Shown here one piece after another: positions 22,601-57,700 of a stretch of 64,000 nt of DNA. The DNA comes from Ascidia mentula (lineage: Eukaryota; Chordata; Ascidiacea; Phlebobranchia; Ascidiidae): NCBI GenBank assembly GCA_947561715.1, contig OX387203.1, positions 18,414,001-18,478,000 on the forward strand, written 5' to 3'. The notes under the pieces were generated by a model. The model searched no databases and was not told the origin of the DNA. It worked only from the letters and a program-made list of their open reading frames with translations. Position numbers and translations under genes: made by a program. Position 1 is the first letter of the stretch. The number at the start of each line of letters is the position of its first letter.

Positions 22601-25600
22601 ATCTGTTAATGCTGGGTTTGGTTTTAAATAAACTCTTAATGCCAACTAGTCATGCACGATGGTGTATGCAGATGTGTGAATAACAATACACCATCTACGA
22701 TTTTACAATAATTTTGCGTAACATCTGCTGAAAAAAACTAATAGAAAGCAAATTAGAGCCAATATTATAAGTTCTGTGAGCTGTAAATTGTTCACCACTG
22801 TTTCGTACTATAAGGTCTCATCAGTGCAACTTTGGTGCGATTGTAAACCGACCATCGGGCAGGCAAATCATTCTACTTTGTGGTGACTATACAGCCACCG
22901 TCATCCGTTGGGCACCAAACTAGGTGCATCCATGCGGAGGAAACAAGGTGGAAGAAAACAATTGGAATCAGGTAATTATTCGTGTCTAGAACTCTGCCAA
23001 GCAATAGCAAATTTATCAAGTTCCTCGCGAAGTAGTAAAATTTTCCATTTTTCGTGTAACTTTTCCGCTTTCTCGTTTAATGATCTGTTCTGATACACTT
23101 ACTGATTCCACTCTGTCCAAAGCCAGTCCAGACCTTGTCTGTGCTGCTGTTGTTTTGGAGGAGAGTTGAGATGCCAGTGGCCAGCCCGTGCGCTATTTGA
23201 GTCGTACAAGAAACTGCGTAATCAACTCCATGAAGGTAGTTTTCCACCTTAGTGTTTCGGTAGGTGGTGTGAAAGAGGCTGAACCGTTTGCAACGGACGA
23301 CAACCATGACGTTGAAGACCGCTTTAACCCTCAGCTATAAAAACTTTTTCAACTGATGAAAGAACTTAAGATGACCGTAATGTGCACTGTGGCAAGAAAT
23401 TGGAGATAATACACCTTTCCTTAATGCGTCCTGGTCGATGTCAAACATTTTATAAATATAAATTAATCAACCTTCTCTCCACCCCATTCTTACATCCGCA
23501 AAACCTAATCCTGTACCATTATTTAATTTGTTTTTTTGCTTTTTACGTTTAACATAACTTCCTCTTTCTGGCGTGTTTTTCCCATCCTCTCTACTCCCAC
23601 ATATTTCTTTCCATTTAATATTATGTAACATGTATTTTCCGTTTTTTGCCATCGTTTATATTATTTCCGTTTAGATTGCTTTGTGTAAATTTTTGTATGA
23701 TATTCGTGGTGGCGGATTAGTTTCCCTCATAAAAAAAAATGAAAAGAAACAGTGGCCATCTGTCTGCAGCTCACAGAATTCATATTATTGGCTCCACTTC
23801 GCTTGTATGCAAGTTAAGCAAATCATTCCAAAATTATCAACAAGAAAAGTTTTACAAATTTGCCATCAATCCAAACAACCATTTCACGTTTCTGGTTTTA
23901 CTCCCACCATTGAAAACTTCTTTTTTACCACGACGGGATTCGAACCCAGGATATCCCGGCCACGATCAGACTTTCTCCTTGGTATCGAGGGGTGGCCAAC
24001 TTGTCAGCGAAAGCAATCAAGCTTCTGAATAAGCGACTCACATGCGACGGGAATATTTAAAAGGTGGTCGAATTTTGGGGAAGTTTCCTGTATATTTTCG
24101 CAGAACCATGTTTGCTGCTTGAGTTCGAGTTGGGCAGAAAACCTACGTGGGTTTCTGCGACGTCGCATTTAAGGTAGTTTGCGTAGTTGTGTTGGATTAC
24201 CGAAGAAATAAAGTGCGCATTTCACAAACAAAAGCTTTTACGTCGGTACGTGCGCCAGGTACTGAATTTACAAGAAAGTAAATCAGAATAACATTAAATA
24301 CGTGCCCGTTGTAAGTGGGTACACACTTTTCGTGCGCTATAATAGTCAATTACTCAACAAAAGGTTTTAGAAGTAAATGCGTTGTGATTGTAACGTATTT
24401 ATACCACCTACAATATCAAAAATATTTTAACTTTTGCGCCAAAAATGTTTCACTGAGGAAACTAGTAATAAAGGCACAGAATGTTGCTTCTTTGTATTGA
24501 CGAAAAATACCACATGTGAGGTAATAATGCCACGTGTTACGTAACAATGTGCCACGTGTTTGGTAACAATGCTCAATTTAAAAACAATGTGTTAAACTGG
24601 CGAACATGAAACTTTTAGTTTTCTCGGTAAATTATGCAAAAAGATTGACGATTACGTTTATTTAAAATTTTGTAAAGTCAACGCAAACTGTGATGCGATC
24701 GACGTGTTGGCCACCCCTGATATAAAACTTTTCTTATCTTAGATTAACTCTTTGCGCCACCCAATGGCCACTTTTTACCTCAACAACATTATTGTTGCGT
24801 GTGAGTGTTTCGCAATCAATAATTTCCTTGAAATATTAAAGTAAAAACACTTTTCAGCGCGTTGAGTTTTGAAATTCTTTTATTTGACCCGACTGTAATA
24901 TAAACTGTTCAAAATTGGTTATTTGAAACATATTTAAGTGCTTTCACCTCATGTAAGGACTGGTGAGGTTTTCGGGATAAGTGGGAAAGTTGGCCGGTTT
25001 CTCATCACTTCCGTCCCTGCAATCGGGACCATCAGGATAACCATCACAAAACCACGCAGCCTCCACCTCCCTCCCATCATCGCAAGTGAACCCTGCACAA
25101 AACACATGAACGTAAATCGATTTGAAATCCATCAAAATCTGTAAAACTAACCAATATATAAAATTAATTGAGAGTTTATGATTTGTAACAAAATACTTAC
25201 TATCGCCAAATTTATACCGTGCTGAAGCAATTGTGATGAAGGAGAGCAGGATTCCAACCACCTTCAACCAATACCTGATAAAACACCAAGAGTTTATATG
25301 TTGCAATGATATATTTCTCTAATTCAGGGGAATGACGTCATCATTGATTTTAGTGGACTTTTACAAACTTTATGTCCAAGAAACACTGCAAGGTTATTTA
25401 AGTTAACTGGTAACCCCCAAATGGCTTTTATATAAACTTTTTTCTGTTTGTCTTTATTCTTATCCGCTTGTTGCTCAAACGCTTACAATAAATATTCAGT
25501 AGTTTTCGCCAAAACTCACTGAACCATTCATATTTTTTTATGAAACTTACAATTAAAAAAATTTTTATTGTCATTTTTGGCAAAACATAAGTTTAATCAT

Positions 25601-28465: not shown

Positions 28466-28520
28466 AGGTGCAGACCTTACAGGTCGTAACAGTGTGTACA
28501 CCTGTCTGCAGCTCTCAAAA
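28466..28520 (+). ncRNA. decayed hammerhead-like motif
   Basis: GACCTTACAGGTC, the stem II of the intact copies at 34.6 and 35.6 kb, is followed by GTAACAG and by TGTCTGCAGCTCTC, the cleavage-site and stem I words. The CTGATGA half of the core is mostly missing and GAAA reads GTAA, so it should be inactive. Confidence 0.5.
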
Positions 28521-30348: not shown

Positions 30349-31116
30349 TTAGTTGTTAACTTCAAATGCATTTGGTGCATGTAAAATTTCACTGAAAAAC
30401 ATAAAGCAGAAGAAATGAACAGTCATATGTGAACTTTCATGCTTACCACAGGTTAGTGGTAAGAGTACATCGCCCAAATCTTTTTGGTTCGCCTGTACTC
30501 CAAGGTAAAGTTCCAATACGTGATCCATCCCTCCACTGGAAGCTGTTTGTTTCCGAAACTCGTGTTGCTTTGATGTAGAATGAGAATTGAAACCCTGAAC
30601 GTTGTTTATCAAAATATTACTGAGCCGATCAACCACAAGAAATTTTCGCTTCATTAAGGAGTTTCAAATTAAAAATAAGTTTGGCTGTAAAGTAACCATT
30701 GGTGGTGATGATTTTTGCTCACAATTGCTCACAACTTGTACACAAAAATTATCTATTTTGAAACATCAGTGACTGCGGTATTAAAATTTTCTGATCTTTA
30801 CTCAAACACATGCAAAAAACAACTAACATACAAGGAATTTTATGAAACCAAAAGTAAAACTTTTCCTTAACAAAGAATAGTTAATGATCATCGCATTACC
30901 TGTTACTGTCCCAAGCTTTTCCACCAGGAAGTTAAATATGTTTGTTGTTTTTATATTAGCGAGATGTGCATTGTGTTTACTACATGCAGTTTCAGCTTCT
31001 GTGTATGAATTAACTCGAGGTCTGATCAAATATTCGTGGAAGTCATCCAACTTGTACCAAGTTTGTCCAAAAACAACAGGTAGAAGATTTACAAATAATA
31101 TAACAAGCAATCTCAT
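30349..31116 (-). CDS. small secreted C-type lectin-like domain protein
   Basis: Three exons, 30,900-31,116, 30,447-30,594 and 30,349-30,391, join in phase to 135 residues. The start MRLLVILFVNLLPVVFG is a clear signal peptide. The C-type lectin-like fold is marked by YTEAETACSKHNAHLANI in the first half. FQWRDGSRIG and PWSTGEP in the second exon are the classic WxDGS and WxxGEP motifs. The domain then closes early, GRCTLTTNLCEI. The usual WND...C stretch before the final Cys-Glu is absent, so one disulphide partner seems missing. Introns are 305 and 55 nt. The short form may be real or may reflect a lost exon. The EPN/QPD-type sugar-binding triplet is EPK here, so calcium-dependent sugar binding is doubtful. 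Confidence 0.7.
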
Positions 31117-31119
31117 TGC

Positions 31120-32380
31120 TGGTTGTATTGCCGGTCTAATTTAATTACATAAACGTTTTAAGCTTCGCTATAACCACTGGGATAAAGTTGCATAGAATAC
31201 TTTTTTTTCCTCACTTCATTAAATGTTTTTCCGGTCCTGCAATCATTCCTAATAAAATGATAGAACGGCGCACCCGAAAGATGTTGACGTTTTTATGAGA
31301 TGAATCCGCTCACGTTATAAGCTTATTCGTTTATATCACTGCTGCACAGTGGTATATGCGGTAACAAATTTCCACCAGTAAGTTTGCAACGCCCCCAAGA
31401 ACAACAAATCGACGCGTCATATGGAAACTCCGCAAGGAAATTACCAAAATATCTGTAAGTCAGCAAACCTTTTCGGTGTTCGACCGATGTAGAAGGAAGA
31501 AAACGTACAATGAACAAATCCTGCTTTCACAACCACCATAAAATGTTACAGCGTGTTTTGCGTTCAAATTTACGTTAACAAGTTCAAGAGAATTCAGTGA
31601 TATTTTAACAGTACGCAGTATTTTAACACCACCACTGTAAATCTCTTCCGACATCAGAACATCTGGTTATAAGAGCTATGCTACTGTATAGTGCAGCTAC
31701 CTGGTTAACACATCTTCTTCTATTGTTATGAGATGTCATATTGCAAGTGATAACGCACGGACTAATGATCACGCAAGCAGTGGGTTGAACAGGTGGGACA
31801 TGTTTGGTGGGAAATTGACATCATCCTAAAATAACATTGTGACACCAACACACAATTACGCCTCTAGCTTGAAAACTGTCAGAAAGTTTGGGCGATCTAG
31901 TTATGTTGCTCAATTACATACGAACACTTGATGGAGGAGAGGATAATCCACGTTATGTTTTACCTCCACATTAAACAATTCTTACTTGTTTTGTGATGTC
32001 ATAATTAATAGATGCATGAGTTGCTAGTGTCGGGATACTCCCCGACTAAGTGACCGTGGGGTACGACTACGTCTCAGGCCTCGCACCCAAGGGATCTCGA
32101 TGGCAACTCGGCCTCGTAGGCAACTTGCCTTGTCTATCTTAAGGTTACTGTTGGAGTTAAATAACTCCTTTACACAAGTCTGTGCGTCTTCTAAATAGTC
32201 TAACTCCCGACTAAACACATACATCCACCAAGCTTTAAACCAGTTGTTACTAAATCCGTTCAAGATCCTAACACGGCAAAAGCTATATAGCTCGATTAGC
32301 CAAGTGCCCTACATAGGTTATTTATGTTTGGGTTGACTTTGTTTTTCGATTAACTAAAAGTAGTTGCCTATATGGCTTCA
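31120..32380. other. no firm gene; possible exon scraps
   Basis: Minus-strand frames at 31,323-31,517 and 31,460-31,654 are Cys-containing but overlap, have no splice context and match no fold that I recognise. Otherwise nothing is visible. Confidence 0.3.
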
Positions 32381-32394
32381 ATAATTTAAGGCTC

Positions 32395-32460
32395 TTCTGG
32401 CAAAAAAACATGTTTGGACGACGTTTCGGTCGTTATTCAACAGACCTTCATCAGGACAAG
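32395..32460 (-). ncRNA. hammerhead-type motif at the Penelope-like 3' end
   Basis: On the minus strand the core CTGATGA is followed by AGGTC...GACC, then GAAACGTCGTC. This gives a 4-bp stem II, a GAAA and a two-base-pair stem III ending in the cleavable GTC. Short stem III hammerheads are known from Penelope-like elements. It lies downstream of the reverse transcriptase remnant on the same strand. Stem I pairing is weak. Confidence 0.5.
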
Positions 32461-32699
32461 CGAAGTGAAATACAACGCCAACACGGCGATAAATAGCAAC
32501 GCGTGACAAAAAAGGCGAAAAAGCGCGAAAAAAGCAAGAAAAAAGCTGAAAAACGGGGAGGGGAGCACAAAGAATTAAAAATGCGCGCCAACAAGGAATG
32601 AGATATCGGGGTCTAAAGCACAGTTCCATGTGGTACGCAGGACCATCAGGTTTAATCAGGGGACGTGTCGCGCAGACTGTTTATCAAATGCCGATAAAC

Positions 32700-34330
32700 G
32701 GGTGGAAAAAAGGTTTCCCTTTTGTCATTAAGTGCAGATTCATGTCCATTTATATGCACAGACTCCAATGAACATTCTCTTGTACCTATCATTTTCCCTG
32801 TCCAGAATTATTGTATCTTTAAAATTGACCATGTGCCCTGTTTCTGCTACATGTTACGACAGTGCCGTCCCTGTAACCTTCTTGGGCTTGACATCCCGCT
32901 GATGCTCCTTTAATCTTGTCCGTAAGACGCGACCCGTCTCGCCAATGTACACCTTCTCACATTTTCAACAGTGGATGCGGTATATCACACCCCTAGCATC
33001 TAGCGCACCTCCAGTGCGATCTTTGGGATACGAGACCAAGGAGCGTAATGTGACTAAACGACGCTCGAACACCAGGATGGAAAAGTCCTCCAGCAGTCTC
33101 TTCAAGGTCTCCGAAAGTCCTGGAAAATATGGAAGAACAACCACACCCGCGGAGGGACTTTTGTCGCATTTAGGCAGGGATGCATGGTTTCGTCGCAGAA
33201 AGGAGCTTGGGTAACCATTCCTTAACAGAGCATCCCGCACACTACCCACCCCTTGTTCTCGGTTATTTTTCTCTGTAACAAGATTCTCCGCTCTAGTGTA
33301 TAGTGCACGCACTACAGCCCACTTGTGGGATATAGGGTGCGCTGACCGGAAGGATAGATACCTGTCAGAATGCGTCGGTTTTCGGTAAACACTCGTGCGG
33401 AGCGACCCACGGTTTTCCCTTTGAACAGCAACATCTAAACACGATAAAATCCCACCATGCTCAACCTCCATGGTGAACTTAACGCTCGCTTCGATCGAGT
33501 TGAGGTTCTCAAGCAGCGATTCCACGTAGTCGCGATGCACAACCACAAAGGTATCATCCACGTAACGTCGCCAAAAGCGTGGGGGACTCGAAAACGTTGA
33601 CAACGCTCTTTGCTCCACGGATTCTATTACTATGTTGGCGACCACAACTGAAAGCGGAGACCCCATGACTGTACCAAAAATTTGCTTATAAAATTCACCT
33701 CTCAATGACAGATAGGTGGCGTCCAGGCAGAGTTGAATGCATTCCACGATCTCTGGTAGTGGCCACGAACAACTTGCCTCCAATGCCTCATCTCTCTGCA
33801 GTCTTTCTGCCGCCACTTCCACTGCCAACTTCACCGGTACGTTTGTGAAGAGAGAGACGACATCAAATGATACCATTACCTCCTCCTGGTCCTCGCTCAA
33901 TTCTTTATTCTGTGCTGCAAAATCGGTAGAATTCCGGACGGTATCATCCGTTGCACCCACAAGGGGGGGACAAAATACGGGCCACATGTTTAGCAAGATT
34001 ATACGTTGGAGTTCCTACGAACGACACAATAGGCCTAAGTGGAACCCCAGGTTTATGAATCTTTGGAAGACCATAAAGACACGGCTTCCGCCCATCCGTG
34101 CTATGCAACTCGAAAAATTCCCTCACTGATAACACTTGCTTGTCCCTGTGTAAGCGACCAACCATTGCATTAACCTTTTGTTGAACAATGTGACCGGGAT
34201 CCCTCTTCACCTTGCGGTAGGTTTTTTCGTCCACCAACATTAACTTAAGCTTGTTCTCGTTATCCCATCTATTCATAACCACCGTCACATTTCCTTTGTC
34301 CGCGGGGAGTATTACAATGTCATTATTATA
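32700..34330 (-). mobile_element. Penelope-like retroelement, reverse transcriptase plus GIY-YIG, broken
   Basis: The upstream part contains ILPADKGN and GLPKIHKPGVPLRPIVS, the N-terminal landmarks of the Penelope-like reverse transcriptase. The main frame (32,965-33,996) has FDVVSLFTNVP, GTVMGSPLSVVVANI and RYVDDTFVV (the YVDD catalytic box). It leads into a GIY-YIG segment, GVIYRIHC then KVYIGETGR. The 5' end is truncated and the coding region carries about two or three breaks. Long open stretches suggest a fairly recent insertion. The hammerhead-type motif at 32.4 kb probably belongs to its 3' end. Confidence 0.85.
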
Positions 34331-34629
34331 TACGTATCTGGGGATGCTGTTAGAATATGTTGTGTTGTCGTAATTTCTTTTGTCGTTTTCTCCTGCACGA
34401 TGTCAGTTGTTTGTTGGGGAAGTATTTGCGAAGTACTTCCAAAGGTTGTTTGTATTGCTTCTGTAGTTGTTGTTTTGGTTGTTGTACTTGCTATAAGGTA
34501 TGTAACGCGAAATTAAACAATATGTTTATATAGGGCTCCTTAATTGCTCACACCAACATATTCACGTTTAAATATTTCTGAAAACATTTTTATTTTTATA
34601 TGCGCAAAAGAGCCATAATAATCAATGAG

Positions 34630-34689
34630 AGCTGCAGACAGGGTGCATACACGCACTGTTTCGACCTGTAAGGTCTCATCAGTGCAGCT
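34630..34689 (-). ncRNA. hammerhead ribozyme motif (type I), apparently intact
   Basis: Minus strand. Stem I is AGCTGCA/TGCAGCT, 7 perfect base pairs. The core CTGATGA is followed by stem II GACCT-TAC-AGGTC, then GAAA. Stem III is ACAG/CTGT with a further UGC/GCA extension. The cleavage triplet GTC directly precedes the 3' strand of stem I. All conserved core positions are present. Expected role: self-cleavage of element transcripts. Confidence 0.8.
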
Positions 34690-34770
34690 GTTGATGTGGC
34701 ACTGTGCTAGCTGGTAGACTAGCAGGCACACAGATTTCCACTTTGTGGTACCTTTCGGTCAATCGTCGAT

Positions 34771-35064
34771 ATGTTGGGTACCAAACTAGGTATCAATCAA
34801 CACAGACGAACCACGTGGAGCGCACTATGGCCAAAACAACAGCTCTCATTGATTATTATGAACACCTCACTAACCCACATAATTTGGAAGACAAGAAACC
34901 GCACCAAACACGACCCCCGCCCTTTGAACTACATCCCCAATCACTTCATCCGATCATTTAAATCCTCTATTGCTTTGAGACTCGCTACACAACGTCACAG
35001 GGAAAACCCCTCTCTCGAAGGCGTCCTGGCCGACGTCAAGAATAACATAACCCAATTTTGGTAA
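34771..35064 (+). CDS. unidentified protein tail, family A (copy in hammerhead element)
   Basis: The frame reads TKLGINQHRR early. It then runs through NRTKHDPRPLNYIPNHFIR and LATQRHRENPSLEGVLADVK to a stop just after NNITQFW. The last 60 residues align with the frame ending near 58,456 (NDLRPLNRIPNT). Shared positions include DxRPLNxIPN and, past a stop in the second copy, QRxRxN. Conserved spacing between two diverged copies indicates a real protein once encoded by this repeat family. I do not recognise it. Confidence 0.45.
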   Translation: MLGTKLGINQHRRTTWSALWPKQQLSLIIMNTSLTHIIWKTRNRTKHDPRPLNYIPNHFIRSFKSSIALRLATQRHRENPSLEGVLADVKNNITQFW

Positions 35065-35553
35065 CCTTCTCTCCACCCCCCTTTGACAAACAACCAATAT
35101 TCAATATATTGCTACAAGTAGACCCCCCTTTCGTGTGTGTGTATGTGACCGCCCTTTGTATTACTTATACACTCTATTTGCGTTTTATTTGTAATCGTAA
35201 ATCCCGCTTTTTTTCTGCACCTTTCCCTCGCTCTCCTCCATTTTCCTTCTTTGCCTATTTGTGCAGTACTTTGTCGTCTGCAAATTTTTTCTTCTGTACC
35301 TGTATTTTTTGTCTGTCTGCAGCTCTCATTGATTATTATGGCTCTTTTGCGCATATAATATGATTTGGGTGAAAGCCGAGCCGATAGCGCTATTGGGTCC
35401 CAAACAGTTGTTTTGGCCATAGTGCGCTTCACGTGGTTCGTCTGTGTTGATTGGTACCTAGTTTGGTGCCCAACATATCGACGATTGACCGAAAGGTACC
35501 ACAAAGTGGAAATCTGTGTGCCTGCTAGTCTACCAGCTAGCACAGTACCACAT

Positions 35554-35620
35554 CGACAGCAGCACTGATGAGACCTTACAGGTCGAAACAGTGCGTGTAT
35601 ACACCCTGTCTGCAGCTCTC
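35554..35620 (+). ncRNA. hammerhead ribozyme motif (type I)
   Basis: Plus strand. Stem I is GCA/TGC plus three more pairs beyond an A-A mismatch. The core CTGATGA is followed by stem II GACCT-TAC-AGGTC, GAAA, stem III ACAG/CTGT and GTC at 35,608-35,610 before TGCAGC. It is the inverted partner of the motif at 34,630-34,689. Confidence 0.75.
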
Positions 35621-35625
35621 ATTTT

Positions 35626-36036
35626 TATTTTTTATATCAATCAAGGCAATTTGATTGGAACAAACTAACTTAAAAACGGCAATAAATGTTGTTCGTCTCA
35701 CAGTTACGACCTGTGTGGATAAGTGAAAATATTTATATACTTTTTTAACTTTGTTCGTCTGCAGATACCTCCTGGTATCCGTTGAAAAACCCATCTCGAA
35801 ATAACATTGCATTCCGTACTTCTCAACTTGTATGTTGAATCAAGTGAAGTTAATGAACCCATTATCACACAATAATTGGATCCTGTTGCGATCGGTTCCC
35901 CTAGCGCCCACTGTCCACTGTCAATACTCCATCTATCCGTCCACTTGAAGGTGCCAGTGCCTACATTTCGTTTGGCTTCGATATAAAAAGAATACGAATT
36001 TCATGTTTAAGTGCCAGAATACGACATAATCTAATT
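35626..36036. other. no recognisable gene
   Basis: AT-rich sequence between the hammerhead element and the LINE scrap. A minus-strand frame at 35,576-35,812 overlaps the element end and has no domain features. Confidence 0.4.
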
Positions 36037-36300
36037 TTGACAGATGCAGAAAAACTATTTGGAATCCATTCTGATTTGCCTAAACTTTTTTTAAATTGTG
36101 CGTTGTTATGTGCCAGATATGTGATTTACAGGAGCAAATACGCGGAAACGAACCCGACCTTACAGAAATTTGTGATTTTTTTGAACAATCTACGTAACTG
36201 TGAATTTTACCTAGCAAAACAAGAAATACTTTATAGTTGCATAAAATTAAATGGTCGCATACTGTCTAAAGTACTCAACGTAATTTGTCGTGTTATTTTT
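36037..36300 (+). mobile_element. LINE ORF2 C-terminal scrap
   Basis: The frame begins TDAEKLFGIHSDLPKLFLN, followed by LLCARYVIYRSKYAETNPT. This is the pattern of the C-terminal tail of LINE reverse-transcriptase proteins (a FG turn, then a LLxAKxxIYxxK-like helix). The rest of the element is absent. A short 5'-truncated fossil is the likely explanation; the similarity is short, so the call is tentative. Confidence 0.4.
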
Positions 36301-36499
36301 TGCCTCCTGGACTCTTGGCAGCGTACCTACGTCACAATGCAAAATGATTACATCACAATTATTTTTGTCACGATACGAGATATTTACATGAATAAAGTTT
36401 CGGCGAGAAGGACAAGAGCTTGCTCAGTCTTGGTAAGCTGCGACATCTTGCGGTTGAAGAACAAACTTACAAAAAGCTAAAGTTGGGTTAAAAAATTGC

Positions 36500-39400
36500 T
36501 AATGGAACAAAAAATTGTAACTTTGAATTCAATTTAACAAAGTGACAAACGCATATAAACGTCTTCTCTCGCTAATGCCCAAACTTTTCATGCATTATTA
36601 ATGAGAGCGGACAAACGCGATCTGTGGGCCTCAGGTTTAAACAAATCGAAATCTGAAACCCGCAAATAGATGTGTGAAATGCTTCAATATCTGCATGAAC
36701 AAATCTGACCTTTGTACAGCAATCCTGTTAGACTTTTCATTAATCGTGTTTGGTTTAAAACACGGAGAAACAAATTACTGCTCATATTAACCCCGATACG
36801 ATGTTTTGGTCTCGTTGAAAGAAAAAGAATTTTCTTATTTTCGTTTCAAATAATTAAAATAAATAAACGAATATTCTTGAAGAAATACGATTACATCAAT
36901 TGTCAAAAGACCAGGAATTACATTAGCATTTAAATTTGTATTTACTTTGGCAAAATACAAACAATTAACTACGTTTGACAGCAAAAAGCTAAACTGCGCA
37001 TGCGCGCAAACCTCCAACCTCATGCTGCAGTACCACAACACAAATGCACCAAAACCACATTCCAAATCGATCTGAAACCCACTTTCTATCCCAACTTTTA
37101 TTTAACCTTTTCTTTTTTCATTCCACGCAAGTTCCAATTTCAATCATTTAATTTCGAAAAAAGGTATTGATTTTTGCCAGCACAATATGGCCGATGACGT
37201 AACGCAAAGTGGGTCAACCCCTAAATTGCAATTAGTTTAATTTGTCCTTTCGTTGTTTTCTCGAACTAACTTGTAATTAGTTAAGTTGATTTCAATCAAT
37301 ACTTGTTCAGTTTTAGTCGATAAACATAACAGCAATTGTTTCCCTAATTAAACTCCCTGTTAATTGCTGGTTGCGATCTATTGAACAGCGGTTCCATTGC
37401 AACATTTAACAGCATCGGAAACAACATATTGAACACACGTTGAAAGTTTTTTCGATAATGGTTGTTACATTACGTATATATACCCACTTCACACTATGCA
37501 ATGCTTACTCATGTTCCAGTTTTAATCCACATTGCTACAATAACACATCGACGTTGAAACGACGTAAAAGTAATACCGACTTAAAAGTCACTAGTCCTGT
37601 ATTAGTAAGTTGTACATGTCTGGTCTGTACCCTACACAAAAGCAATTACCCAATGGCGATCCTAATGCCGAAGGAGCTACGGCGCCCGCTTTACTTTCCT
37701 CATGTTATGAAAGAAGTCGTTACCATGTTGTTACGAAATAGCGCAGATTTAAGCTCACAAAAGAGCCACCTGGTCTCCTGCCAATGGACAAAAAGATAAT
37801 TAAATTAATAATTCATGGTTTCGTGCGGCAGGATGTGTGTACCATAACAACTCGCCGACCGAGACGACAGTGGTTATTCACAACATCGCATTAGGAATTA
37901 ATTCCCTGGAAAACCTCCCAGGGCAACTTGGGTTTGTATGAAGAATCGCCACGTTGTCAATGTTGACTATTCACTGTTACCTTACTCTACAGTTTTGCGT
38001 TGTTGTGGAAATTGTTTTCGCAATGGTCGAATCCTAAGTGATGCTGCAGTTTTACCTGTGGTGTATTCGATCCGCTTATAATTTATTGTGATGCTTTACC
38101 AGCAGATAAAAACTTTTTTCGTTCGTGTGACGTTTAATACACACAAGTTTGTTACTGCAAGATAAATTCGAGAAGGAATGACCAAACCACGAGGTTTGTG
38201 ACGTCACAGTGGGAGTTTCGTTTGTTGCAAATTTAAACACAAACATGGGTGAAAAGATTTGTGTAAAGGAAAAATTCACCACTGGCTACATTGACCTTGC
38301 TTTCATTGTGTAGAAATGTCTCCCACACTTGTCAAACTCAATTTTAATCAATTCTTTGTTGAAACAAAACTCTACGCAGGGAATCTCAATTCTTTCCTAT
38401 ATTCGTACAATAGTGAGGGGTTGTACACTGTATTCAAGTCCACAGCAACTAAATAGAGAAAAAAGAGCCCCAAAAAGCTCATTGAGATATGGAGATAAAA
38501 TCTTGTTGTTTCTGTTAAAAAACTTGGGTGTCAATTATAAATATGTTTAAGTGCATGTGACATTGAAAATTAAAATCAAGTCTACAAGATGATCAAAGGT
38601 TTTGACAACTTTGGCGAAAAAAATAGCTTAATACGGCCACAGGTTTCTGAGATACACCTGATCAAAGTAGCGTTTAAACCGTTGCGGACGAAATCGTGCG
38701 ATAGCGAGATTATTGTTGCGTGACGTCACGCTTGAATCGTTCGAGAGCTGCCAGCGAGGCTTATATACGTAGAAATGGAAAACATTGTAAAACTGCTGGT
38801 TTAGTAGTTTTTCATTAAACAAGAGCACAACAAGTGAACAATGGGTTAGGGAGACAAACCGTCAGTGGTTTATTTATCGCGTCGGTTAATTCTTGAAGCA
38901 TTTTCGTTTTGTCAACTCATGGCAGCAATCTTTCTATGGCAGTAGCGTTGTACACGAGTTGGCGTTACATCATAAATGATTCGATTTATTCATCGTAATC
39001 AATTCGTTCTGCCGAATAATCGTTTTTGGTCACATCCTAGTCAAACGATGATGTACTCCACTATAGTTATTCTTTAAGTAATGTTTATTCGCATTGTAGT
39101 TGGTAACTACTGAGCGAAAACACGCACCATCCACGTCTCATTGAAGTACAGAATAATGTCGTACAACTATACCTTTTGGTTTGACGATAATCAGAGACAA
39201 ATAAGCCTTTGGTTTGTGAAGTCACTGTGGCATAATTTTGTATGATGTCACAGCCTACCTTGATGACGTTTGAGGTAGCGTAATTTGTGGGATCTATTCG
39301 ACACCGACAATATAAGACGCTTTTCCTATGCAAACAAGGCATTTTTTTGACGCGAACGCCTTGTATGACGTCAAATTCGCAGCAACGAAAAATGTTAAAG

Positions 39401-39930
39401 ATTATTGGTCACCGCTACTGTTTTTGTGTAGTTTTCTACATTTTTAGTGGACTTTGAATCTGACTACGCAATCTGAAAAAAAGTATTTTATTTTGTGTAA
39501 GCTTTTATCAACAAGTAAGGTGCTCTCGCACTGCCTGGAAGAACTTCATGTACCACAGTTTAGCTGGGAAGAATGCCTTGGTTCTACCAGTACAGAAATT
39601 ATTAGCCTTGCTAAAGTTCAATAATGGATTATTGACCACAGACACAATGGGCCGACGTTTTATTTGGGGCAATTTAAAAATCCAATTATTTCTATTGTCC
39701 TGTAGGGAGACGGAGTTTCTAATTAGACAGAAGTTATTCAGTTGTCTAATAATCATAGTTTTGTTACGAATTTAAATTTCCGATTGAATACAATCCGTTG
39801 GTTCAAAAAAAAAATAAAACGAACAAACATTCGTGCAGTTTGAACAATGATTCTAATCCAAACTGAACTTTGCGTATTAGAGTTGGATGCAGTAAAAAGT
39901 TTCTTTATAAAAACATAAAAGTAGTGAAAT
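36500..39930. other. unique sequence, no recognisable gene
   Basis: I find no supported coding exon on either strand. The region has scattered palindromic TGACGTCA-like words (for example near 38,200, 38,720 and 39,360) but no clear promoter or repeat structure. Confidence 0.4.
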
Positions 39931-39931
39931 A

Positions 39932-40661
39932 CGTGCCATACTGGTCCCATGCCGGTGACACGTATTTGTGCCATAACTGGTTCCATGCCGGTGACACGTA
40001 TATGTGCCATAACTGGTTCCATGCCGGTGACACGTATATGTGCCATAACTGGTTCCATGCCGGTGACACGTATATGTGCCATAACTGGTTCCATACCGGT
40101 GACACGTATATGTGCCATAACTGGTTCCATGTCGGTGACACGTATATGTGCCATAACTGGTTCCATGCCGGTGACGCGTATATGTGCCACAACTGGTTCC
40201 ATGCCGGTGACGCGTATATGTGCCACAACTGGTTCCATGCCGGTGACGCGTATATGTGCCACAACTGGTTCCATGCCGGTGACGCGTATATGTGCCATAA
40301 CTGGTTCCATGCCGGTGACGCGTATATGTGCCATAACTGGTTCCATGCCGGTGACGCGTATATGTGCCATAACTGGTTCCATGCCGGTGACGCGTATATG
40401 TGCCATAACTGGTTCCATGTCGGTGACATGTATATGTGCCATAACTGGTTCCATGCCGGTGACACGTATATGTGCCATAACTGGTTTCATGTCGGTGACA
40501 CGTATATGTGCCATAACTGGTTCCATGCCGGTGACGCGTATATGTGCCATAACTGGTTCCATGCCGATGACGCGTATATGTGCCATAACTGGTTCCATGC
40601 CGGTGACACGTATATGCGCCATAACAGGTTCCATGCCGGTGACGCGTATATGTGCCATAAC
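39932..40661. repeat. 36-bp minisatellite, about 20 units
   Basis: The unit starts ATGCCGGTGACACGTATATG and ends TGCCATAACTGGTTCC. Variants fall at a few sites: CACG or CGCG, ATAAC or ACAAC, GCC or GTC. CGCG units cluster between about 40,170 and 40,420, which suggests local homogenisation. Because 36 is a multiple of 3 and the unit has few stops, five reading frames stay open through the array; this alone is not evidence of coding. Confidence 0.95.
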
Positions 40662-40824
40662 GGCCAAAAACCATACCGGAGCCACGTAGGATGCCATGTG
40701 TGTCATGCTGGTGCCACGCGGCCGTAAATTCGGTGACAATTGTGCTACGCTGGTGCCATGTGGCCCAAAATTTGTTCTATGTTTGCCATCCTGGTGCTAC
40801 GTGGCCCATGTCACTTTTTCTTGT
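40662..40824. repeat. minisatellite flank with degenerate GCTGGTGCCACG words
   Basis: The block matches 61,096-61,262 closely from CCATACCGGAG to CATGTCACTTTTTCTT. The two sites are paralogous, yet the 36-bp array is present only here. Confidence 0.8.
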
Positions 40825-40825
40825 T

Positions 40826-41041
40826 CATGATTGCAGAATTTGGTTTTGATTCCTTAGTAGCAGAAGTTTGGAAACCAATTGCTGCGGTTGTAGCTGGGTT
40901 TGGTTTGTAGGAGTTCGCGTGGGTTGTGGCGTGGCTTGTTGCTATTGTCCTCGTTGTTGCTGTTGTTGCTGTCATTGTTTTGTTGTAGCTGACATTGTTG
41001 TTATGCTTGGTGTTACTAGTAAACATGTGTACGTCTATCAT
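40826..41041 (-). pseudogene. Thr-rich stalk exon of the small membrane gene, copy B
   Basis: The minus strand encodes TATTATTRTIATSHATT and YKPNPATTAA, matching the stalk of copy A at 6,797-6,968. Here it runs into a different context (IMNKKK, then stop) and is not followed by the membrane exon, which lies on the wrong side at 43.6 kb. It is therefore a displaced fragment. Confidence 0.55.
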
Positions 41042-51700: not shown

Positions 51701-54700
51701 TTCATCACTTTTATCTGGACAGTCGGTGACGTCATCACACACATTTGACCTTGAGATAATCATTGGGTCATTTGTACATTGAAAACATGAACGATGATTA
51801 AATGTCTGAGAACTTCGAATGTCTCTGCAAATGAAGTCCATTACTTTGAATAAGAACTCATGATGTTTTTAGTGAAACATTTTTTCTTTACAATAAACTG
51901 CGTTTGACACGAGGTTATTTATATGTAACATTACAAGTCCATTCTGTCTTATCTTAACCGGAAGATACTTTCAACCAACCACAACGTTTCATCAGTACCT
52001 GGCATCTCCATTCTCCGAGGCGTAACACAAATCAGATTTATCATCACAATCGGCAATGCCGTCCCATAGAAACATCTGCGGAAGATTGCAATTCCTGCCA
52101 TTCCGAACACATTTGAATCCATGTCCATTATTCCAGTGTTGGAAAGCTGGACAGTCATTGCAAGGATCGCCATCACAAACAGTCGAACGTTTCCAACAAG
52201 CTGAATTCGGACACTGGAAGTGGGAGGGGCAGAGGTACTCACATGGGGAATTCCCTAAACAATGAGCGAGCTTGTCGCACATTTCATTTTTTGGGTTACA
52301 GGAAATGTTGGTTTGATCCAATGTGTTGTAACAGACTCCATCATTGTCGAAACAATTGCAACGTGGTTTTGAACTAAATAAAATTGATAGTTTATTTGCA
52401 TCAACGAAATAAAGGTCTTTTCAAACCTACCCGAAATACACTTCCTTGTTCTTAATGCATTGCTCATGGAATTTTCCATTACAACCGCATTCATCACTCA
52501 TATCAGGGCAATCTATGACGTCATCACAAACTCTTGACCTTGAGATGATCATTGAGTCATTTTTACATTGGAAACACAATCCTTCTTTCATGGACGATGT
52601 ATTACGAATGTCTCTGCAATAACAAATTTGTTTACAGAAGCAATATTTTACCACAAGCAAGCAGTTATCGCCGCTCTTTTTAACATCTATAGCCATAAAA
52701 CCACTAAGCTCATTTCACAAAAACTATATTCATGTTTGCAAATGTTTCAGTTTTTTCGTTTTCACTGCAATAGGAAGAGTGACGCCGAATAATGGTAAGA
52801 TAAGGAGCACAGAGGTAGAGGTTAGTCTGGAGCAGTGCTGGCAAGTACGCATATGCAAAACACAATCAAAAACAAAATACCTGACATCTCCATTCTCCGA
52901 GGTGTAACACAAATCAGATTTATCATCACAATCGGCAATGCCGTCCCATAGAAACATCTGCGGAAGATTGCAATTCCTGCCATTCCGAACACATTTGAAT
53001 CCATGTCCATTATTCCAGTGTTGGAAAGCTGGGCAGTCATTGCAAGGATCGGCATCACAAACAGTCGAACGGGACTGGAAGTGGGTGGGGCAGAAGTCAC
53101 ACAGCTTTTTTCCAACACATTGGATGATTCCTTTGCAAAACTCCTCCACTCTTAGGGCGCATACTTTGTTGAAACCGTTGTCGTCAAACTTGTTGTCGCA
53201 ACTGTAACAAAGTAATGTATTAGGTCATATAACAATAGTTTCGGGAGATTTGCGTTTGTAAATGTTGAAACATGAAGAGTCGTCATGACTTTTATCCGGT
53301 AAATGTTAAGTGTGGTTTGAAATAAACTAGATTAATGCCAACTAGTCATGCACGATTGCGCATGCAAATGTGTGAATAACAATACACAATCTACGACTTC
53401 ACAATAATTTCGCGTAACATCTGTTGAAAAAAACTAATAGAAAGCAAATTGGAGACAATGTCATAAATTCTGTGAGCTGTAAACAGTTGACCTCTGTTTT
53501 GTACTATAAGGTCTCATCAGTGCAGCTTGGTGCGACTGTTGTAGACGATCATGCCGACCATCGGGCAGGCAAATACTTCTACATTGTGGTGACTATACAG
53601 CCACCGTCAACCGTTGGGCACCAAATTAGGTGCATCCATGCGGAGAAAACAAGGTGGAAGAAAACAATTGCAATCAGGTAATTATTCTTGTCTAGAACTC
53701 TGCCAAGCAATAGCAAATTTATCAAGTCTCTCTCGAAGTTGTGAAGATTTTTATTTTACGTGTAACTTTTCCGATTTCTCGTTTAATCTGTTCTGATAGA
53801 CTTACTAAAGCCACTCTGTCCAAAGCCAGTACAGCCCTTGTCTGTGCTGCTGTTGTTTTGAGAGGAGAGTTGAGATGCCAGTGGCCAGCCCGTGCGCTAT
53901 TTGAGTCGTACAAGAAACTACGTAATCAACTACATTGAGGCAGTTTTCCAGCTTAGTGTTTCGGCCGGTGGTGTGAAAGAGGTTGATTATCCGTTTGCAA
54001 CAGACGGCAACCTTGACGTTGAAGCTTGCTTTAACCCTGAGCTATAAAAACGAACTTTTTAAATTCATGAAAGTATCTCCGATGACCACAATGTGTACGG
54101 TGGCAAGAGATTGGTGATAATGCAAGCATCAGTACTCGCCCCAAACTCTATTCCCGAGCTCTTGCTAGTTGGAAAAAAACAATACAGTTGAGGTGTTGCA
54201 AGAAGGGAAACGACAGACGCCCGACTCGTATCCCATCCTGGGTTCAAATCCCGGGGAGATACCGCCACAATTCCAGTGGTTCCTACTGAAGCATCCACGC
54301 AACCAGTTGCCACATCCACCCCAAAGTCAACCATGCGGGACGACGGCATTATAGAAATGCGGTCCCACAAACGGAAGAAAACATCGTACTGCCGCACTAC
54401 ATACGTAACATCAGGCAAGTGTTACGGAATTATTTCGGCAGCTTTGCAATTAAGCGGTTAGATGTTTTTGGGTGGCGATGTTATCCCCCAATTAACCCTT
54501 CTACCTAATTTGGTACTTTGCACAAAACTGCCTCCCTAATTCTGATACTGTCCAGAACCCTGCAATAACGGCTCACCACGAAGCCAAAGTAACCCAGGCT
54601 GATTTAACTTATTGGACGTCGTGTTCAACTATAAAACGAATAAAAACAGTACAAATGACACTGGCCAAGATCACAATTATCCACAACACCGTAACAGAGG

Positions 54701-57700
54701 TGCTCACTACACGACGCCCAGAAGGAGACTCCTTAGGTTTAGGGAAATCCTTCGCTACAACACAATCACCAACCAATCAGGATGCGCCTTCTCGACACGC
54801 GGCACATCCGGGGCACACAAAAACAAACGGATCGTAAAATAATAGGAAGAAGAGGGGAGACGGAGGTAACAAAATAGTGTGGTGAAAATAGGTGAAATGC
54901 GAGACTTAAAGCAATATACGTGCGTAAAACAATATAATAAATAAGGTGGTAACAACGAAAGAAAACAGTGAAATTACAAGGTGCCAGCAAGAAAGGGGAA
55001 AACAATGAAATACATACAATACTTAACAAAAGTGAAAGGTGACGTGAAGGAAATAAAATTCGTTACACTCCCCCCAACCCAAGAATTGTCCTACTCCTGT
55101 TGGACATTGGTCTACACGTGTGTCTCCGACGAGAATCGAACTGGCCGGCGTCGGGTCCGTGTAGACCTTCTGCATCCGCCCGAATTATCCGGTGAATTCG
55201 ATACCTCTCCATTGTCCACTCTCCATTGGTTGTATGTGGCCTAAATACATACACCAACGTAGGTTGTTGATCTTCGGCCTGCGGAGGTTCTGCCGTTTGC
55301 TCAGCGGGCATTGGGAATGTATCTGTGGTCGGTTTCAGCCGATTGAAATGGACAGTCTGTTGTTTACCAGTCCCATCTTCAATGACATAGTTCACAGGCC
55401 CGCGTACTTCGACCACTCGGTACGGACCTTTGTAGGGATACTGCAATTTCTTGCACCGACCTACGGGAATGACCGGGTTCGTTAACAGCACATAGTCTCC
55501 CATCGAGTATGGCTTTTCCCGTTGTCGCAAGTTGTAGCGGTCTTCCATACGCTTGCGCTGTGTCATAAGACTTCCCCTGACAATTTCTTCGGCCAGCTCT
55601 AGGCCGTCGCGTAACTGGTCGATCTCCACTCCGTAACATCGTCTTGAATCTTCTCGGAGGGATCCCAATAAATCTGCCGGAAGGCGCAACGGTCGGCCGG
55701 TCAAAAGGGTGTGCGGAGCTTCCCCTGTTGCTTCATGGGCGCTTGCGTTGTAAGCTGCGACTACTCCTGGCAACGCCTCTTCCCATCGTCGTTCGTCTTT
55801 AGCAGCTAGCTCTGGGTCGTTACTCTGCCGCTCTAGCAGCTCGTTCTGTTCATATCCGATGGTTGCTTTCAAGTCCACGGCGTTGACCTGTTCAATCCCT
55901 CGGCCTTCATCCGCTCTTTTGTATGGACATTCTGGATCATCCTCCAGGGAGTCGGATTTCTTCCGAACCAACACGATCGGACTGCTCCACGGCGATTTAG
56001 ACGGCCGAATCAGTCCTTGTTTGTCCATTTCTGCCAAAATCTCTTCCACTTTCGCCTTGTTGTGGTGGGGCATGCGGCGGGGTGTAGCGAGTTTTTGCAC
56101 CGACTTTGGCACCAAATATTCGGATGTATCTCGAGCTATACGTTTTTGGTCGAAGTGACATTTTGTCTCCGATGCGCGACGAATCGACCTGGAAAACGAA
56201 GGTGTACATGGTATGTTTTGACGTCTCGTGTCGACATCCCTTGTGTGTATATCCGTATGCGGGCAGTCGCGCCGCATATGGCCCAGTCCACCGCAACCAT
56301 AGCAAGTCCGTGCTCGCACGTTGTTGTACTGTGGTCGTTCGCGCTTTATGTCATCCACTTGAACTTGTAACGTCGCTAAGGCGTCCTCGAGTTGTGTGTT
56401 CTTTTCCTTGGAACGTTTCTCCATGTCTTCTAACTTTTTTAGTACTAATTCCATCTCTGATGCTCTTGTGTTCACTGCAGCGACTTGGACAAAGCTCGGT
56501 GTTTGTGTATTGACAACGACTTGAGCTGCGGCTCTGAATGATCGCTCATACTTGATGGTGATCGGGATAGTGTCCGCGAGGCGCCGGTCTTGCAAGCCTC
56601 GCAGTAAGGTAATGTACAGAACCTCATTTTTAAGGGCAGCTTCAGCGGAGTTGCTGTAGGCGCCATCGCCCAGTGCCTGTAGGGCGTAAACGAATTCACG
56701 TGCCGATTCGCCAGGTAATTGCACGCGCCTTATCAGCTCGGCGCGTTGACGCTCTGCGTGTTGACCAGTAGCCCTTTGGCGCAATGCGCGTTCTTTGAGG
56801 TCCTTGTAGGAAACCTCGAACAAGTTTGCGTCTTTTTCTTGTATTGTCCATTTCAAGTCGTTGTCAATGCTTGCCAGGAACAGGTGTCGTTTCATTTCTT
56901 CTGAGGCCTCGACGCTCGTACAATATGACTCAAATACATTAAAATACTGTCCTAGGTCAGCTCCCGGCCGTAAAGGCGGAGGTTGCATTAAAACATTAAA
57001 AGCCATTGTTAAGAAAAACCAACCTTTAAAATATCATAAAACCAAAATACACGTAGGGAGTCTTCCCAGTAAAACCAGCCGGGTGAGGTAACAGGGTCCT
57101 GGCGTGCTCGCCAAGTTGTTACGGAATTATTTCGGCAGCTTTGCAATTAAGCGGTTAGATGTTTTTGGGTGGCGATGTTATCCCCCAATTAACCCTTCTA
57201 CCTAATTTGGTACTTTGCACAAAACTGCCTTCCTAATTCTGATACTGTCCAGAACCCTGCAATAACGGCTCACCACGAAGCCAAAGTAACCCAGGCTGAT
57301 TTAACTTATTGGACGTCGTGTTCAACTATAAAACGAATAAAAACAGTACAAATGACACTGGCCAAGATCACAATTATCCACAACACCGTAACAGAGGTGC
57401 TCACTACACGACGCCCAGAAGGAGACTCCTTAGGTTTAGGGAAATCCTTCGCTACAACACAATCACCAACCAATCAGGATGCGCCTTCTCGACACGCGGC
57501 ACATCCGGGGCACACAAAAACAAACGGAGCGTAAAATAATAGGAAGAAGAGGGGAGACGGAGGTAACAAAATAGTGTGGTGAAAATAGGTGAAATGCGAG
57601 ACTTAAAGCAATATACGTGCGTAAAACAATATAATAAATAAGGTGGTAACAACGAAAGAAAACAGTGAAATTACAAGGTGCCAGCAAGAAAGGTGAAAAC

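Follow-up and report, generated by a model that had tools for sequence, protein, structure and literature searches.

Paired short and long ends of head-to-head retrozyme insertions in an ascidian genome point to Penelope-like copying

How do two hammerhead ribozymes (HHRs) come to face outward from opposite ends of one short piece of ascidian DNA, and which enzyme put them there? The piece lies in a 64,000-nt stretch of the Ascidia mentula genome (C71:18414001-18478000), here called the window, and its layout had been singled out in a sequence-only reading of that stretch. The papers cited here leave it open which enzyme mobilises animal retrozymes and name Penelope-like elements (PLEs) as strong candidates (passages of PMC7229834 and PMC7761336). 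A 2020 review states, in the passage cited, that retrozyme repeats show no motif revealing the mobilising retrotransposon (PMC7761336). In this study, we analyzed the window element together with related insertions found in 195.8 Mb of genome.

The element extends from 34602 to about 35622 and is flanked by a target-site duplication (TSD) of 17-18 nt. Its parts, and those of a neighbouring element, are the following.

32382-34329, minus strand: neighbouring degraded, 5'-truncated PLE with its reverse transcriptase (RT) core at 32965-33996 (genome copies; RVT_1, 30.6 bits)
32423-32454, minus strand: minimal hammerhead core of the neighbouring PLE, CTGATGA..GAAAC and then GTC (pattern search)
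34585-34601, no strand: left TSD copy, CATTTTTATTTTTATAT, found as one diverged copy in the empty-site paralogues L033, L034 and L035
34602-34840, minus strand: left arm, a retrozyme unit 5'-truncated at unit position 90 (repeat and copy comparison)
34630-34689, minus strand: left hammerhead, stems I/II/III of 7/5/4 bp, predicted cleavage 34637/34636 (stem pairing, profiles, pattern)
34840-34860, plus strand: short sense retrozyme piece, unit positions 3-23, at the inversion junction (repeat comparison)
34861-35312, plus strand: captured LINE 3' fragment (87.5-90.7% identity to L003-L008 and L010; RT frames there)
35313-35622, plus strand: right arm, one full 293-nt retrozyme unit (35318-35610) with extras (copy comparison)
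35558-35616, plus strand: right hammerhead, stems of 3/5/4 bp, predicted cleavage 35610/35611 (stem pairing, profiles, pattern)
35620-35637, no strand: right TSD copy, CATTTTTATTTTTTATAT (comparison with the empty-site paralogues)

The inverted end repeats of about 220 bp that had been described are present as arms of 217 nt (34624-34840 and 35407-35623), 97% complementary and spaced by 566 nt, and an additional inverted pair (34596-34641 and 35313-35358) matches over 46 nt at 100%. The ends had also been read as mirror images, and this they are not. The left arm is a long end that reaches ~35 nt beyond the HHR cleavage site, tail included; the right arm, which has 5 nt ahead of its unit, stops ~12 nt beyond the cleavage site and is a short end. 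The first 4 nt of the right TSD copy may belong to the element.

Both hammerheads contain the core CTGATGAGACCTTACAGGTCGAAAC, at 34658-34682 (minus strand) and 35565-35589 (plus strand). Core, stems and cleavage triplet are those of a type I hammerhead, in agreement with the earlier description of two outward-facing hammerheads of this type with conserved cores, and stem pairing gives the same cleavage positions that had been predicted, 34636/34637 and 35610/35611. The pattern CTGATGA-N8..26-GAAAC has five matches in the window, two of which are these HHRs, compared with 0.18 expected from shuffles, and 0/100 shuffles reached five. The suggested Rfam check gave a divided answer: at gathering thresholds no hammerhead was found in the window, and below them RAGATH-1 scored 27.6 bits on the left HHR (E 0.039) and Hammerhead_3 ~25 bits on both (E about 0.01). 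In unconstrained folding of each isolated HHR, the hammerhead was not the minimum-energy fold, other pairings being preferred, and 41/200 and 19/200 shuffles folded as well or better (z -0.77 and -1.40). Stem I of the right hammerhead is cut to 3 bp by a mismatch. Because of this mismatch, and because folding favours other pairings, self-cleavage of the window HHRs at the predicted sites can be called only plausible.

Did the two arms arrive together? In L033, L034 and L035, which are located on the same chromosome, window positions 34465-34601 are joined directly to 35620-35926, with the target sequence overlapping, and the AT-rich target is present in one slightly diverged copy, as opposed to the two copies flanking the window element. 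The empty paralogues and the doubled target therefore indicate that 34602 to 35619/35623 came in as one unit. The window element is a single insertion event, both arms together, and the idea that it is not a chance head-to-head meeting is borne out by one TSD and three empty sites. The neighbouring PLE was considered as a component of the element and rejected, as these three paralogues carry the PLE without the insertion. A candidate independent second copy at C71:18033197 was also rejected; this copy, 415 kb off (L002/L041), shares its flanks with window 30518-40949, of which it is a segmental duplicate. The segmental duplication family on this chromosome comprises window 30518-40949 and C71 near 17.66, 18.03, 18.07 and 18.61 Mb. 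Its members with and without the retrozyme insertion could serve to date the insertion.

The coding frame that had been noticed between the repeats is real (34861-35064), and it belongs to a LINE: where an unrecognised protein tail had been seen, the insertion has captured the C-terminal part and 3' UTR of this unrelated LINE. The fragment consists of C-terminal codons to a stop at 35064, followed by a 3' UTR that is cut before the poly-A. RT frames of 562-567 codons, reaching the locus edge, are present in 5/7 matching loci (L003, L004, L006, L008 and L010), while L007 has a broken RT frame and L005 contains a 3' fragment of the LINE only. The L004 frame matched RVT_1 with 72 bits and zf-RVT with 24 bits, the latter below the cutoff of 27.5. 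The LINE piece is joined to the retrozyme 5 nt upstream of the hammerhead cleavage point, and in another insertion (L051) a 243-nt foreign piece is joined 3 nt upstream of the equivalent point. Among L001-L030, the LINE-retrozyme fusion recurs only in the segmental duplicate of the window. The window element thus encodes no protein of its own, and an autonomous inverted-repeat element with its own protein was rejected, the frame being the C-terminus of a LINE.

A second retrozyme-like family was observed in the LINE flanks of L003 and L005 and at L048 514-675, and is ~70% identical, where compared (L048), to the unit of the window arms (unit A). In L005, the hammerhead of this second family has a LINE of the captured kind inserted next to it, apparently with a ~17-nt duplication; in L003, too, the LINE poly-A adjoins the family.

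The window element is a metazoan non-LTR retrozyme by type. Unit A measures 293 nt from cleavage point to cleavage point, has a GC content of 0.478 (47.8%) and is non-coding, with a longest stop-free run of 111 codons in circular reading; retrozyme units are expected to be non-coding, of about 170-400 nt and below 50% GC. A search with the 26-nt HHR core at <=2 mismatches gave 2512 matches in the genome (1250 + 1262), and the reversed core gave 0 matches in the same search. Tandem copies, of which the window copy has no complete pair, occur elsewhere in the genome: arms of L011, L014, L015 and L042 contain 1.7 to 3 units, and at C70:2551285-2554838 ~8 antisense units are followed by 5 sense units, one of them partial (from coordinates, among the matches listed). 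A second subfamily (unit B) has units of ~288-291 nt. Type I HHR, unit size, GC content, lack of coding capacity, tandem copies, TSDs of more than 4 bp and the presence of PLEs in the genome are all features of metazoan non-LTR retrozymes in the text cited (PMC7229834), and the proposal that the hammerheads belong to a PLE or retrozyme setting is supported. Plant LTR retrozymes are likewise non-autonomous and HHR-bearing, and circular RNA intermediates have been reported for them (passage of PMC4918200), but they differ in having type III HHRs, LTRs with PBS/PPT and 4-bp TSDs, and their partner is probably Gypsy (passages of PMC7229834 and PMC7761336).

Decayed relatives of the retrozyme unit occur in the window at 22748-22945 (minus), 28472-28517 (plus) and 53494-53631 (minus), and one of them retains a hammerhead-like core at 22800-22824. 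Local duplicates of one retrozyme insertion were found at C67:5984462, 6002119-6003016, 6007170 and 6046014; they differ in unit number and left structure, likely through unequal exchange.

To place the window element among its relatives, we examined 44 loci. Merging of 12 local or segmental duplicates (L014, L015, L022, L027, L030 (with L013), L016, L025, L045, L050, L054, L086 and L087) left 32 independent insertions. L002, L009 and L041 represent the duplicate of the window itself, L055-L084 are re-cut loci already included, and C72:7319798, C1:4544004, C52:7372633, C73:13200404, C52:10552574, C69:2546644 and C52:5986126 remained outside the counts. Arms were head to head with 3' ends outward in 25/32 insertions, a share that is not a genome-wide estimate because of how the loci were chosen: L091-L093 were picked for close opposite HHR sites and most others were ranked by similarity to the window. 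Two of the 25, L028 and L052, were scored as inverted on second arms of 16-18 nt only. The remaining seven insertions (L019, L021, L044, L049, L088, L090 and L094) have a single orientation. Many genomic copies with the inverted layout had been anticipated, and the 25 insertions fit this expectation; copies with direct arms only, which had been put forward as evidence for a chance head-to-head meeting, do exist (7/32), and the single-event reading of the window element stands beside them.

The unequal ends of the window element proved to be the rule. In 22 of the 25 inverted insertions, one end is short (5-14 nt beyond the cleavage point) and the other is long (32-44 nt); random re-pairing of the observed ends gives 22 in 1.5e-5 of permutations. 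The exceptions are L020, with both ends long and no TSD, L028, with both short and a TSD of 14, and L052, with one end internal and no TSD. TSDs are clear in 21/25 inverted insertions, with lengths of 8-17 nt (most often 11-13) and a mismatch or indel in a few of them; they are uncertain in L017 and L043, missing in L020 and L052, and present in 4/7 direct insertions. Several were first read by eye, and 10 were then located by script.

Two further sets of copies were read for orientation or ends. Among the first 100 HHR sites listed, all seven close opposite-strand pairs, counted by eye, are in the (-,+) order, or six with one segmental duplicate merged. For the second subfamily, 9/14 inverted clusters among the matches listed are clearly short/long (coordinates only), 3/14 combine a short with an unresolved end and 2/14 are long with a non-short end. 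This list had 40 clusters, 5 of them mixed; C2:18363223 was counted as inverted short/long, and the other four mixed clusters were omitted, one being the query locus and three being whole-query matches that were single or overlapping. Rows read as direct were dropped, because a second arm beyond the query hides orientation.

Do PLEs of the same genome leave such ends? The neighbouring element in the window is 90.5% identical over 32632-34340 to that of L036, and its RT frame passes the RVT_1 cutoff, while the 828-codon open frame of L036 matched RVT_1 with 29.2 bits (cutoff 29.6) and GIY-YIG weakly (15.9 bits, E 0.017). A PDB search with the PLE protein returned no match. We take the element to be Penelope-like on its RT and GIY-YIG motifs, its layout and its minimal hammerhead, in which GTC comes directly after GAAAC; the Pfam matches, below cutoff in the intact frame, are weaker evidence. 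Our own count in the genome copy search gave ~18 inverted pairs of this PLE. Both ends were read in five pairs whose two arms extend to the 3' end (L038/L039, L040, L095/L096, L097/L098 and L099/L100). All five have a short end and an end that is ~26-29 nt longer, and TSDs are ~11-13 nt. A sixth pair, L036/L037, was left out because the flanks of its two members are near-identical on either side, as would be expected of a larger inverted duplication. The PLE tail has no clear counterpart in the retrozyme tail: unit A gave no sequence similarity and unit B a weak one, equalled by 22/1000 shuffles; a tail sequence common to PLE and retrozyme is thus not supported for unit A and weak for unit B.

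The window element has no frame with RT and GIY-YIG between pLTRs, because its inner frame is LINE-derived and the PLE frames lie outside the element and in L036. PLEs encode RT and GIY-YIG and usually carry minimal HHRs, whereas the window element encodes nothing of its own. Inverted arms, one tailed end and a TSD, the insertion anatomy of PLEs, are nevertheless found in 22/25 inverted retrozyme insertions and 5/5 PLE pairs read: the retrozyme inserts in PLE fashion without being a PLE. This shared short/long signature points to PLE machinery as what copies retrozyme RNA. Passages on Adineta vaga Penelope describe inverted pLTRs, an optional 31-bp extension at one 3' end, TSDs and capture (PMC3846280), so that the optional tail of ~30 bp on one arm is a likeness; head-to-head pLTRs, TSDs and captured foreign sequence are likewise shared with this element and with Anolis PAc (PMC11167929). 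In the Anolis PLE, RT starts at two internal sites and both strands are cut and extended (passage of PMC11167929), and the two start sites per retrozyme unit would correspond, by analogy, to the PLE tail and to these internal sites.

In our view the window element, a non-autonomous hammerhead element of the retrozyme kind, was probably inserted in one event by PLE two-sided copying. A PLE RT/GIY-YIG protein would make a staggered cut in the target, and each 3'-OH would prime reverse transcription of sense retrozyme RNA at an internal position, ~12 nt past the HHR cleavage point for one strand and ~38 nt past it for the other. Both the duplications and the outward 3' ends fit, we infer, a staggered cut with the two 3' ends priming RT. 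The two cDNAs, joined at their 5'-truncated ends, would give two outward-facing HHRs. With either start site located beyond the cleavage point, the template for an HHR-bearing arm must span this point, as circular or multimeric RNA would; linear RNA left by self-cleavage may at times have been copied as well. In the window copy, RT would have switched onto a LINE RNA and then back.

The inner ends of the arms bear on the templates. Six of 57 arm 5' ends lie <=1 nt from the predicted cleavage site, compared with 0.58 expected (P 3e-5, or 0.006 allowing any 3-nt window), two of the six (L020 and L028) being ambiguous by 2-4 nt of junction overlap. Another 15/57, by hand count, lie at unit positions 256-289, the 3' half of the hammerhead, where RNA structure may have stopped RT or the palindrome of stem III may have served for joining. 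All 57 ends were entered by hand, several approximate by a few nt. In the same-RNA comparison of the two arms, variants common to both were rare everywhere. The arm starts at the cleavage site suggest that some templates were self-cleaved, with RT running off their ends. Results on the Anolis PLE would, by analogy, speak against such a reading: in the passages cited, HHR mutants had no effect on PLE insertion in vitro, and RNA-seq gave no reads ending at the HHR site (PMC11167929). The PLE model also has to accommodate the 3/25 inverted insertions that break the short/long rule, as 2/14 of the second-subfamily clusters listed appear to. The same in vitro study found the start sites not to differ between strands (passage of PMC11167929), and this result alone does not predict the pairing seen here.

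One rival of the PLE model takes the arms for solo pLTRs derived from an autonomous PLE outside the sample, i.e., for PLE debris and not retrozymes, with the same enzyme acting. PLEs are described as leaving pLTRs behind in solo and inverted form and as capturing sequence (passage of PMC3846280), and their pLTRs contain HHRs (passage of PMC7761336). The PLE of this genome, however, differs from the retrozyme in its HHR, which is minimal, and in its ends, and the retrozyme units build their own tandem arrays. A PLE protein match was present in 1/44 retrozyme loci, the window's own L001, as a neighbour outside the TSD, in flanks of ~0.3-1.5 kb, so that a more distant frame could escape; we consider this explanation unlikely. 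Two accounts that use one RNA or one strand are less likely still. Twin priming by a LINE enzyme would have the second strand prime internally on the same RNA and the inversion arise as a by-product. L1 twin priming leaves inverted 5' pieces, TSDs of such lengths and short junction overlaps, and the insertions here are L1-like in all three respects. Both outer ends, however, lie at two fixed narrow sites without poly-A, the arms often cover one and the same unit region, and the PLE of the genome has the equivalent pattern in 5/5 pairs read; the fixed short/long ends refute simple twin priming, and we give the idea in general little credence. Self-priming, in which a palindrome lets a strand fold back and copy itself from the antisense template, was proposed for head-to-head Adineta Penelope copies from junction palindromes (passage of PMC3846280), and the 10-nt palindrome GTGTATACAC in HHR stem III is where several arms start, e.g., L013 and L027. 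Most junctions, however, connect unrelated unit positions, and folding back alone gives no reason for two different outer-end sites, which makes this account equally doubtful.

Two explanations are the least probable. A MITE-like DNA transposon whose terminal inverted repeats carry HHR-like sequence by chance would account for long inverted repeats and TSDs, but the ends of one copy are unequal (~12 vs 35 nt), arm lengths and junctions vary, 7/32 insertions are direct only and TSDs range from ~8 to 17; in place of matching termini and a fixed TSD, the signs of such a transposon, we found unequal ends in 22/25 and variable TSDs. We consider it very improbable. Equally hard to credit are two independent retrozyme insertions landing head to head by chance. 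The abundance of the family (the 2512 core matches) would favour such meetings, but one TSD brackets both arms, the empty site has neither, and the close opposite pairs among the first 100 sites listed are all in the (-,+) order.

The wider form of the PLE model, that PLE machinery inserts metazoan retrozymes from near and far starts as single-tailed pairs, with cleaved and unbroken templates used in vivo, is one towards which we lean only slightly. If it is true, genomic copies show both the mobilising enzyme and ribozyme activity. A signature common to retrozymes and PLEs makes the mobilising enzyme testable by sequence in any animal genome, and the pairing of a near with a far start in each insertion also has implications for the way in which the PLE enzyme treats the two target strands. 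Metazoan retrozymes are described as tandem repeats, the word 'inverted' being absent from the main text (PMC7229834, Cervera and de la Pena 2020), and paired short/long ends as seen here are not described for metazoan non-LTR retrozymes in that text. In the open-access literature searched, we found no description of a paired short/long head-to-head signature in retrozymes. This suggests that, with inverted layout, tail, TSD and capture known for PLEs, the paired-end insertion record in retrozymes, pointing to their mobiliser, is new. A 2024 review suggests, in the passage cited, that retrozymes arise by reduction of PLEs (PMC11722881).

Elsewhere in the window, a satellite at 39929-40661 consists of 36-bp units (20.4 copies, 95% match) with long open frames on both strands, and a 647-codon frame at 55063-57006 (minus) with an integrase p58 C-terminal domain and a zinc knuckle is probably an LTR retrotransposon.
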